40,765 nt of DNA from Pseudobdellovibrionaceae bacterium (GTDB lineage: Bacteria > Bdellovibrionota > Bdellovibrionia > Bdellovibrionales > JAMPXM01). Within the stretch, counting starts at the first letter, position 1. Each line of letters opens with the position of its first letter. The notes under the pieces were generated by a model that did not search any database, had not been told where the DNA came from, and saw only the letters and a program-made list of their open reading frames with translations. Position numbers and translations under genes: made by a program. Positions 37,145 through 40,765 of the stretch are shown here, piece after piece. Location of the stretch: contig CANHQR010000031.1 in the NCBI GenBank assembly GCA_947462815.1, forward strand, positions 1-40,765, in the 5' to 3' direction.

Positions 37145-37947
37145 GACACACTTCCTTAAATTACGAGCCTCAATTCGCAAATTGAAACTCGAGCATTGAT
37201 CAAGAGGATCGACCCATCAGAACCACCGCAGATTCCAAAAGAACCCTTGGTCGATCGGCCTTCGACGCCACGTTCTCACACAACTCCAAAGAGCCGCGTT
37301 CAGAACCAGCCATCGGCGCACTTCTTAGAGCAATTTGCCCCGAACGGAAAGCAAACAATAAAAAGAGGTGCCAAAAGTCCGAACGCCAGACGCCTTGAGC
37401 GCCTAACGAACCGATTGAGGGGGCTAAAAGAGCACAGCGCAGCGCGAGCGTCAAGGTGTTGAAAAGCAGGGCGGCCACTGTTATCAACCTCGAGCCCTCA
37501 AAGTCGATCTGAGCTCGAACATGTGGATAAAGCACAGCTCGAGCTAAATCTCGGTTATTGAAGGCGGACTGCTGTGGAAATCGCACGATCCTCTTGAAGA
37601 TCTGTGCGATTCGGAAAGCTCGAAGATTGAGGGGAAAATCGACGAGACAGTTTGCGACAGAGTCACAACAAGCTGTGGAAAACCTTGGACTTAGCCTCAA
37701 TTCAGGAAGCTGTCCAAGTCGTGAGAAGAGGACCTCATGGGTTATTATACCGATGAGCCAATTGGTGGACGAGGAGATCAATTAAATCCTCCACGAGATC
37801 GACCAACAGCTGTACCGAAGAAAGCTGATCCTCGAAGTGAGAGGCTTGGGGATCGCTGGATCGGGATGGGCAGTCGGTGTGGCTCGGATTGAAAGAGCGG
37901 CTGGAGCTCGAGGCGGACTTTCCGGCGAATCGCGAGGGGGCGAGACG
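37145..37947. other. rpmH-dnaA intergenic region, upstream part of candidate bipartite oriC
   Basis: The 803 bases between divergent rpmH and dnaA lack a convincing gene. They hold a cluster of DnaA-box-like 9-mers: TTATCAACC (37481-37489, two mismatches), TGTGGATAA (37522-37530, perfect on the minus strand), TGTGGAAAT (37573-37581, two mismatches) and TGTGGAAAA (37674-37682, one mismatch). Promoters of rpmH and dnaA must also lie here; I found none with both good elements. TTATTATAC at 37742-37750 could be a dnaA -10 region but has no partner. Confidence 0.65.
37522..37530 (-). promoter_or_regulatory. Perfect DnaA box
   Basis: TGTGGATAA is the exact complement of the DnaA box TTATCCACA. It is the only perfect match I found in either intergenic region next to dnaA, about 420 bases before the dnaA start. 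Confidence 0.8.
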
Positions 37948-39552
37948 ATGGATTCAAATTCAAATTCTTTCTTAAGTTCCACACTTGCAAGCGGTCAATT
38001 CCCGCTTCTGGATCAACGCCTGGAACAAAACCCCGAGACGCCGCAGGCCGATCTCCAGGCCCAAGGGTCCTCAGCGCAAATACACGATCGAACTGTTGAG
38101 ACCACCTCCGCCACGATGGAGCGCACAAGCGCGATCGACGCCGGCTTCTGGCGCAAAGTTGTCGACAATCTATCGGCAATGAACCCCGAGAATAAACTTT
38201 TCCGAACTTGGCTTTCTGCCACATCTTTGGATGATCTCGAACCCACCGAGTCAGGTGTGCGTTTTGTGATCGGCGTGCCTTCGAATTTGCATAAGAACTT
38301 CATCGAAGGCTATCTCGATCGTTTTTTGCCCGAGATTCGTGCTCATTACCCCGGGCCATTTTCGATTGAGATCCGAGTCACCAATAAGACGGTAGCACAA
38401 GAGCCAACGACAGTGGATGAGTACCTCTATCAACAGGAGCAGCAGCACTTCCGCACCGAACATCGTGAGGACGGCATCGACCATCCAGCACATACCTTGG
38501 GTCCTAAACCAGCTCCGTCGATGAATGAGCCTCGCCCCGATATGACATTTCAGACCTTCGTTGTCGGAAGCACGAATGAGTTCGCTTACACAGCGAGCCG
38601 CGCGATCGCCGAACAACCTAGCTCACTTTACAACCCGCTCTTTCTCGTCGGACCCACTGGTCTCGGTAAGACGCATCTTCTATTTGCGATTTGGAACCAA
38701 CTCCGCGCGAGCTTTCCACAACTTCGCGTCACGTATGTTGCCGCTGACAGATTTCTCTCGGAGTTCCTCAAACATTTACGAAAGAACACCGCCTACGAGT
38801 TTCAACAGAAGTATCGCGAACAATGCGATGTGCTTTTGATTGATGACATCCACATCTTGAGTCGCGGTGAACGAATTCAAGAGGAGTTCTTTCAGACCTT
38901 CAATCACTTCTCTCTGAGCCGTAAACAGGTCGTCGTGACCTCAGATCGCCTTCCACGCGATATCGCAGGTCTTGAAGACCGGATTCGCACACGCCTTGAG
39001 GGCGGCCTGATTGCGGACATCAAGATGCCGGACTTTGAAACGCGCCTCTCTATTCTTCGCTCCAAGGCCGAGTCAAAGCGCTTACCTATTGATGAATCAG
39101 TGTTGCAATACATTGCGAAAGTCTCGAAGCGCTCCGTCCGCGAGCTCGAGGGTAATCTCAATAAGATCGAGATTTTGGTGAGCCTGTATAACAAACCAGT
39201 CACCTTAGAAAGCGCGAAGCAAGTGCTCGCCCTTGACGCTGAAGGCAACCAAATTTCCATGGAAGATATCGAAAAGTTGGTCGCCGACTTTTACAAGCTT
39301 CGCGTCAATGATCTCCGGGGATCCGCACGTCCAAAGCCTATCGTGACTGCAAGACAAGTTGCCATGTTCCTGATCAAGAAGAACTTGCCGAACAAATCGC
39401 TTGTGGAAATTGGTCGACACTTCGGTAATCGAGATCACACGACCGTGATGAATTCTCTGGAACGCATTCAAGATCAAGTGATCACCAATTTGGATTTAAA
39501 GAGAGATATCGACGATTTACAGGGGAGAATCCACAACATCACAGGGGTGTGA
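37948..39552 (+). CDS. dnaA: Chromosomal replication initiator DnaA
   Basis: The AAA+ initiator that binds DnaA boxes and melts the origin. Domain I starts near residue 62 (FWRKVVDNLSAMNPENKLFRTWL), and a flexible domain II follows. Domain III has Walker A GPTGLGKT (235-242), DVLLIDDIHIL and the sensor/arginine region. Domain IV ends with the DNA-binding signature GNRDHTTVMNSLERI (about 493-507). The frame is open from 37837. I chose ATG 37948, which has a GAGGGGGCGAG purine tract upstream; it leaves about 56 Ser/Gln/Glu-rich residues before domain I. ATG 38116 would start nearly at domain I but lacks a ribosome site. Confidence 0.96.
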   Translation: MDSNSNSFLSSTLASGQFPLLDQRLEQNPETPQADLQAQGSSAQIHDRTVETTSATMERTSAIDAGFWRKVVDNLSAMNPENKLFRTWLSATSLDDLEPTESGVRFVIGVPSNLHKNFIEGYLDRFLPEIRAHYPGPFSIEIRVTNKTVAQEPTTVDEYLYQQEQQHFRTEHREDGIDHPAHTLGPKPAPSMNEPRPDMTFQTFVVGSTNEFAYTASRAIAEQPSSLYNPLFLVGPTGLGKTHLLFAIWNQLRASFPQLRVTYVAADRFLSEFLKHLRKNTAYEFQQKYREQCDVLLIDDIHILSRGERIQEEFFQTFNHFSLSRKQVVVTSDRLPRDIAGLEDRIRTRLEGGLIADIKMPDFETRLSILRSKAESKRLPIDESVLQYIAKVSKRSVRELEGNLNKIEILVSLYNKPVTLESAKQVLALDAEGNQISMEDIEKLVADFYKLRVNDLRGSARPKPIVTARQVAMFLIKKNLPNKSLVEIGRHFGNRDHTTVMNSLERIQDQVITNLDLKRDIDDLQGRIHNITGV

Positions 39553-39891
39553 ATAACTTCGCTGTGGATGTTCAGACCGCTCGCTGAGCCTTCGATACGG
39601 CTCCACAACAGGCCTGTGGCTCGAACGTGGAGAGAGCGTGGATCTCGCGTATTAATCGAGGATAAGACCGTAAAACCGAAATCGTGAAGCGCCAGAATTC
39701 TATCGAAAGTTGGTTTCTCGAATTCAAAAGTGGAGAACTCAACGTCATCGTGGATTAAGCCGTGTAAGAAGCTGCGAACCTAATTGTGGAGGAAAGTCTT
39801 CGACATTTTAGAGCGACTTAAATGCGACTTAGCGAAGAACTCCTACACGGATAGAAGGTCGTGAATCTCAGTACTTAGCAAGTAAATGGCG

Positions 39892-39940
39892 ATTCCCACA
39901 CCCCTTACTACTACTAATAAGATTTTAAAAATATATATAA
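39892..39940 (+). other. Candidate basal unwinding element with DnaA-trios
   Basis: In order: the degenerate DnaA box ATTCCCACA (39892-39900), CCCC (39901-39904), four trinucleotides TTA-CTA-CTA-CTA (39905-39916) plus ATA, then an almost pure A/T run to 39940. DnaA-trios read 3'-(G/A)AT-5' on the complementary strand, exactly what these give. The order box, GC-rich spacer, trios, A/T tract matches that described for Bacillus subtilis. Confidence 0.7.
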
Positions 39941-40089
39941 GAAGAACAGGAAACCTGGCTCGAGCGATGATGCAGCGACACAAAATCTAACTCAGAAGCC
40001 AATGCGGAATTCGATAAAAAAAACCGCAACAAAAGCTAGGGAACACTGTAAACCAAATGACCACAGAAAATGAGCCCAGAGAACCAAGT

Positions 40090-40117
40090 CAAAGGAACGA
40101 AGCCAAAGGAACGAAGC
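40090..40117 (+). repeat. 14-bp tandem duplication carrying the dnaN ribosome site
   Basis: CAAAGGAACGAAGC occurs twice in direct succession (40090-40103 and 40104-40117) and ends at the base before the dnaN ATG. Each copy has AAAGGA; the second lies 7 bases before the start, the first 21. Confidence 0.9.
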
Positions 40118-40765
40118 ATGATGATCGAAGTCGAAAAACGAGATTTGCTGAATCTTCTGGCGAAGACACAAAACATTGTCGAGAAGCGAAACACCATGCC
40201 GGTGTTGGTCAACGTTTTGCTTCAAGCAGGTGAAGGTTTTCTCAAGGTTTTCGCGACAGACTTGGAAGTCAGTTTGACGGATCAGATCCCGACACTGAAA
40301 GAGAAAACGGGCAAGGTCGCAGTTTCAGCGAAGAGCCTTTTTGAGATCATCAAAGAGTTGGATGATGCTCCCGTGACTCTCACGAAAAAAGACAACAACT
40401 GGCTTGAAATCAAACAACGCCGTTCAGTCTTTAACCTCGTGGGAATTGCAGCTGAGGAGTATCCAGTTTTCCCATCTTATTCGACAAAGGATTTCATGAA
40501 AGTATCGGCAAAGACTTTTGCCGATATGATCGAAAAGACTATCTACTCGGTCTCTAACGACGAAACTCGCTATTACTTGAATGGCGTTTTCTTTGAGCGA
40601 TTACAAAACGACGGGAAAGCAGCCTTCCGTATGGTTGCGACAGATGGCTTCCGATTGTCTGTTGTGGACCGTCAGATCGAAGAGTCGAAGGCAGCTTTCC
40701 CCGCATCAGGCGTCATCATTCCACGCAAAGGTTTGTTTGAGATCCGTAAACTTCTTGAAACTTCG
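40118..40765 (+). CDS. dnaN: DNA polymerase III sliding clamp, beta subunit (3' end outside window)
   Basis: The ring-shaped clamp that tethers DNA polymerase to DNA. 216 codons are present of about 366-375 and run without a stop to the last base. It begins MMIEVEKRDLLNLLAKTQNIVEKRNTMPVLVNVLL in part, the family's first strand and helix. FATDLEVSLTDQIP and the second-domain segment YYLNGVFFERL with MVATDGFRLSVVD are diagnostic. ATG 40118 has AAAGGA 7 bases upstream. A second ATG follows directly. It lies downstream of the candidate origin as in most bacteria. Confidence 0.97.
   Translation, partial: MMIEVEKRDLLNLLAKTQNIVEKRNTMPVLVNVLLQAGEGFLKVFATDLEVSLTDQIPTLKEKTGKVAVSAKSLFEIIKELDDAPVTLTKKDNNWLEIKQRRSVFNLVGIAAEEYPVFPSYSTKDFMKVSAKTFADMIEKTIYSVSNDETRYYLNGVFFERLQNDGKAAFRMVATDGFRLSVVDRQIEESKAAFPASGVIIPRKGLFEIRKLLETS

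Follow-up and report, generated by a model that had tools for sequence, protein, structure and literature searches.

The replication origin of Bdellovibrio bacteriovorus was described by Makowski et al. in 2016 (PMC5124646) and contains four GAT trios near box 1, separated from it by a short GC-rich stretch and lying within the unwound DUE. P1 nuclease mapping with a mixture of the organism's own DnaA and E. coli DnaA gave about 55 bp of unwound DNA, and the in vivo start of replication was placed in the DUE by RIP. Opening by B. bacteriovorus DnaA alone was only faint, and the authors noted that the factors which stimulate it had yet to be identified.

Here we describe the corresponding region in a 40,765-nucleotide stretch of DNA (the window), contig CANHQR010000031.1 of the Pseudobdellovibrionaceae assembly GCA_947462815.1, which comprises 107 contigs and 3.43 Mb; the contig stops within dnaN. 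Like the B. bacteriovorus oriC, the locus occupies a dnaA-dnaN gap, carries DnaA boxes inside the 3' end of dnaA and has a GC-rich spacer and GAT trios beside the DUE-proximal box. It differs from that oriC in a gap of 568 bp rather than 232 bp, an insert of approximately 187 bp, and TTA and ATA as its first and fifth trios. The element is a further case of a known kind, since the trios and opening site of B. bacteriovorus were already published in 2016. With the B. subtilis BUS it shares the succession of box, spacer and 3'-GAT-5' trios, further DnaA boxes and a homologous DnaA (PMC6669920, PMC8287927, PMC10721633), whereas it has a single weak box where B. subtilis has two in tandem, one of them strong, the equivalent of DnaA residue N187 is a serine, and the relatives keep an IHF-like site upstream. 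The E. coli oriC, with its IHF-assisted ssDUE recruitment, resembles the locus in having an IHF site in the DUE-proximal box region, and an IHF-alpha gene is present here as well (PMC10380432). Unlike this locus, the E. coli origin relies on TT[A/G]T(T) motifs in the DUE (PMC10380432); here the use of IHF would be a reading of the sequence, and the site in the window is degraded.

The trio array and its conservation

Read directly from the window, positions 39892-39940 are ATTCCCACA-CCCC-TTA-CTA-CTA-CTA-ATA followed by an A/T tract (Table 1). The order of box, GC spacer, trios and A/T tract that a first-pass annotation of this DNA had pointed out is present letter for letter, and its placement in the dnaA-dnaN gap is borne out by the flanking genes, which match TIGR00362 and TIGR00663. 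On the minus strand, from box 1 outward, the array is 3'-AAT-GAT-GAT-GAT-TAT-5', in keeping with the BUS definition, which sets a minimum of three 3'-NAN-5' trios in a row (consensus 3'-GAT-5'). The features that define a Bdellovibrio-type oriC, namely a site between dnaA and dnaN, a DUE adjoining box 1 and boxes at the 3' end of dnaA, are likewise found in the window. Of all 40-mers in the window, 39904-39943 has the lowest stability, at 0.97 kcal/mol per step (1.14 for the runner-up), and (C/T)TA x4 has a single occurrence in the 40,765 bp with both strands scanned. Allowing at most one mismatch, CCCNTACTACTACTA matches once in the 3.43-Mb assembly, compared with four matches for a reversed control pattern, and the control rate gives a chance expectation of about 7e-4 in the 568-bp gap.

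Table 1. Features of the dnaA-dnaN region, numbered from the first letter of the window and listed with the basis for each.
Feature	Positions	Strand	Basis and remarks
dnaA, replication initiator	37951-39552	+	TIGR00362
DnaA box GAATCCACA inside dnaA 3' end	39527-39535	+	Same place (-25 from stop) in all eight relatives listed
DnaA-box-like sites at dnaA stop: TTATTCACA (39548-39556), ACATCCACA (39563-39571)	39548-39571	-	
Insertion of ~187 bp peculiar to this genome, directly after dnaA stop	39557-39742		Aligned to nine gaps from the same family; boundaries may be off by several bp
Remaining DnaA-box region with poorer boxes: TAATCCACG (39749-39757), TCCTCCACA (39785-39793)	39743-39865		Alignable with relatives
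Degraded copy of IHF-like site, TCTCAGTACTTAG	39866-39878	+	Two mismatches to WATCARNNNNTTR; position conserved in order and phylum
Trio-proximal DnaA box 1, ATTCCCACA	39892-39900	+	Sequence, alignment, box scoring
C-rich spacer CCCC, box 1 to trios	39901-39904	+	Sequence, alignment
DnaA-trio array: TTA CTA CTA CTA (39905-39916), ATA (39917-39919)	39905-39919	-	Sequence, conservation
A/T tract	39920-39942		With trios, lowest-stability 40-mer of the window
dnaN, truncated by contig end	40121-40765	+	TIGR00663; MIEVE start at 40121

DnaA similarity places the window in Bdellovibrionota; the closest records that carry a name are MAGs labelled Bdellovibrionales, Bdellovibrionota and Bdellovibrionaceae. 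A scan of genome contigs returned few near relatives, two of these records being fragments of one MAG, together with distant phyla. We pulled dnaA-dnaN gaps from relatives, giving 54 other complete gaps of the order and, with the window, 55 order members. All 54 keep the order of box, C-rich spacer, CTA-type trios and A/T tract, and information content across the gap peaks in the trio columns, with 2.3-2.6 bits at the first C of each trio. The first-pass annotation had named conservation of the trios in related gaps as a check on its reading, and trinucleotides that drift while their neighbours are kept as grounds for giving it up; those grounds are absent, because nothing else in the gap is as well conserved as the trio columns. 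In 52 of the 54 relatives the first trio begins 160-166 bp past the dnaA stop, an order-wide regularity that comes from these data and corresponds to no published criterion. Both the trio design and the fixed distance from the dnaA stop hold across the order.

For the wider phylum, 60 further loci were fetched, of which 39 came from other orders and had dnaN found alongside; a CTA-type array (at least 12/16 match) is present in 19 of these 39. Those 19 and one locus cut before dnaN form a 20-sequence phylum set, in which two loci, L108 and L116, are doubtful by their surroundings. CTA-type trios are mostly absent from the gaps of one family of the phylum (f15). In two loci of this family, L130 and L135, the dnaA-dnaN gap instead pairs a DnaA box with trios of ATA type (3'-TAT-5'), and most of the family's other gaps have no clear array.

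We consider it very probable that the oriC of this chromosome has its basal unwinding element at 39892-39942. This is the reading that the first-pass annotation had put forward, and it gains from the unbroken order in 54/54 gaps, from the arrays in 19/39 loci of other orders and from the B. bacteriovorus trios inside the P1-mapped DUE (PMC5124646). For opening and strand use we infer the following course, which parallels the B. subtilis model for the oligomer on the trios and for melting (PMC6669920, PMC10721633). DnaA at box 1 and the upstream boxes would nucleate an ATP-DnaA oligomer, which would cross the C-rich spacer, engage the 3'-AAT/GAT-5' trios on the minus strand and stretch that strand. 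The duplex would then melt at approximately 39904-39943, and the helicase would be loaded there. The element would place the chromosome opening site of an uncultured predator-group genome to the base.

DnaA and its boxes

By E-value, the best PDB match of the window's DnaA is 8btg, a B. subtilis-type DnaA chain, and in this alignment the B. subtilis arginine finger R264 corresponds to R348, the ISM residue I190 to L273 and N187 to S270. The arginine finger is kept among the oligomer residues, as is a hydrophobic residue at the I190 position. In B. subtilis it is N187 that touches the adenine of the trio (PMC10721633), and its replacement by serine in the window's DnaA counts against reading the element as a basal unwinding element.

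Box 1 has three mismatches to TTATCCACA, the E. coli consensus, and one to the Bdellovibrio consensus NN(A/T)TCCACA, and it lacks the T conserved at position 4, a further point against the unwinding reading. The first-pass annotation had also counted three mismatches, a number that stands when TTATCCACA is the reference, and had called such a box unusual for anchoring, which is ruled out by the mismatch counts across the 55 order members: the best box at a spacer of 3-5 has at least two mismatches to TTATCCACA in 49 of them and at least three in 25, making a weak anchoring box common in the order. The published BUS search rule looks for a box no more than 16 bp upstream of trio 1 and, for a sole box, tolerates up to two mismatches (PMC8287927); it is strict about the standard box but admits a species-specific consensus where one is known. 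Scored with TTATCCACA, the window has no box of two or fewer mismatches within 16 bp of the trios, the nearest being ATTCCCACA at 4 bp, so under the E. coli consensus the locus falls outside the sole-box rule; 31 of the 55 order members fall within it. The weak trio-proximal box is no contradiction, because strand separation on scaffolds in B. subtilis work depended on just one box of the pair, the upstream one (PMC8287927). Since box 1 is weak throughout the order, DnaA probably needs help to reach it.

The box inside the 3' end of dnaA (Table 1) has counterparts in boxes 7 and 8 of the B. bacteriovorus oriC, which likewise lie within the 3' end of dnaA (PMC5124646). A second box-like stretch (TTATCCAC or TTTTCCAC) was observed directly upstream of the trio-proximal box in L088, L093, L097, L109, L110 and L128. 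This tandem arrangement, which is B. subtilis-like, is frequent outside the order and mostly missing in Bdellovibrionales.

A conserved IHF-like site upstream of the trios

A motif matching the IHF consensus WATCARNNNNTTR holds a fixed place in the order, -40 to -38 from trio 1; on the other strand, for comparison, the consensus reads TAAnnnnTTGATW (PMC10380432). In a position scan of the region, this is the sole place with a low mean mismatch (1.8, the next best being above 3.2). The mean mismatch is 1.61 at -39 for 44 order clusters and 1.95 at -40 for the 20 other-order sequences, and with the position taken over from the order set, 15 of those 20 have at most two mismatches. Of 3000 permuted patterns, none equalled this in the order; for the phylum set the rate was about 1 in 3000. 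An alignment built without reference to the motif has the closing TTA of the site nearly invariant. The copy in the window, TCTCAGTACTTAG, is not significant when taken alone, as chance often gives two mismatches. IHF-alpha exceeds its curated cut-off in the source genome and in 111 of 114 phylum genomes. The source genome encodes four HU/IHF-family proteins (L082-L085), one being an IHF-alpha over the cut-off and one an IHF-beta-like protein below it, with the two others nearest IHF-beta and HU.

In the part of the literature on the Bdellovibrio origin that was covered, we found no mention of an IHF-like site, and a conserved site of this kind in the oriC neighbourhood of Bdellovibrionota is apparently unreported. 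It offers a testable answer to the question of stimulating factors left by Makowski et al. (PMC5124646). The most likely aid for DnaA in reaching the weak box 1 would be a bend that IHF (or HU) introduces between that box and the ones upstream. We put forward a putative IHF (or HU) bend at the site approximately 40 bp before trio 1 as this helper step only tentatively, judging its chances to be nearly even. Across the phylum an IHF bend could plausibly assist opening, and in the window lineage this step may be weakened.

As an alternative to an IHF site, the motif at -40 might be bound by a different protein or give DnaA an additional contact, with a mere resemblance to IHF, a reading that we rate only slightly below the IHF one. 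In its favour, the motif varies at positions 2-4 (T/A, T, T/C), whereas the TTA that ends it is nearly invariant. Against it, none of the 3000 permuted patterns rivals the IHF pattern in the order, almost every phylum genome has IHF-alpha, and the DUE-proximal box region of E. coli also contains an IHF site (PMC10380432). Taking the motif as an IHF site, origins in much of Bdellovibrionota may combine Bacillus-type trios with an E. coli-type IHF site at a fixed place approximately 40 bp before trio 1, the weak box 1 being loaded via the IHF bend, and the window lineage, with its degraded site and its insertion, may have weakened or replaced the IHF step. We offer this wider scheme as a conjecture standing a little short of an even chance.

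Departures of this genome from its relatives

Several features set this genome apart within the order. Trio 1 (TTA) and trio 5 (ATA) each depart from a C that is 98% conserved, which weighs somewhat against reading the element as the unwinding site. The trios lie 352 bp from the dnaA stop, farther than in any of the 54 order relatives; this does not exclude membership of the Bdellovibrio type, because the spacing of approximately 163 bp is not a published criterion. Outside the insertion that follows the dnaA stop, the gap aligns with those of same-family relatives. The insertion itself contains three CCACA/TGTGG cores against 0.38 expected (Poisson P 0.007). We also considered whether it might be a repeat copied from elsewhere and rejected this, as a 517-bp piece of the gap compared with its own genome matches only itself (E 0.001 or better). 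In the conserved part of the gap, the boxes are poorer than in the nearest relatives.

Three good DnaA boxes lie upstream of dnaA (37522-37530, 37573-37581 and 37674-37682), one of them a perfect TTATCCACA; two of the three match TTWTCCACA, a pattern with no other occurrence in the window. Together with the poorer gap boxes, the insertion and the substitution of two near-invariant trio positions, this would suit an origin that is decaying in the gap while initiation takes place mainly elsewhere, for example at the boxes in 37522-37682. We regard such a displacement as highly improbable: four trios and the A/T tract persist, no other (C/T)TA x4 array is found in the window, and its least stable 40-mer is still in the gap. 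Moreover, dnaA autoregulation or a bipartite origin are possible roles that would account for the upstream boxes just as well. It is also very unlikely that the trios are a generic A/T-rich melting tract, with a CTA repeat that has no role and a DUE opened by DnaA torsion from the upstream boxes, for while the segment is the least stable of the window and box 1 a weak one, conservation is strongest at the C of each CTA, a base that raises stability, and the A/T tract beyond the trios is conserved mainly in composition.

At the far end of the gap, a 14-bp direct repeat, CAAAGGAACGAAGC, occurs twice at 40090-40117, directly 5' of the likely dnaN start and overlapping the likely ribosome-binding site.
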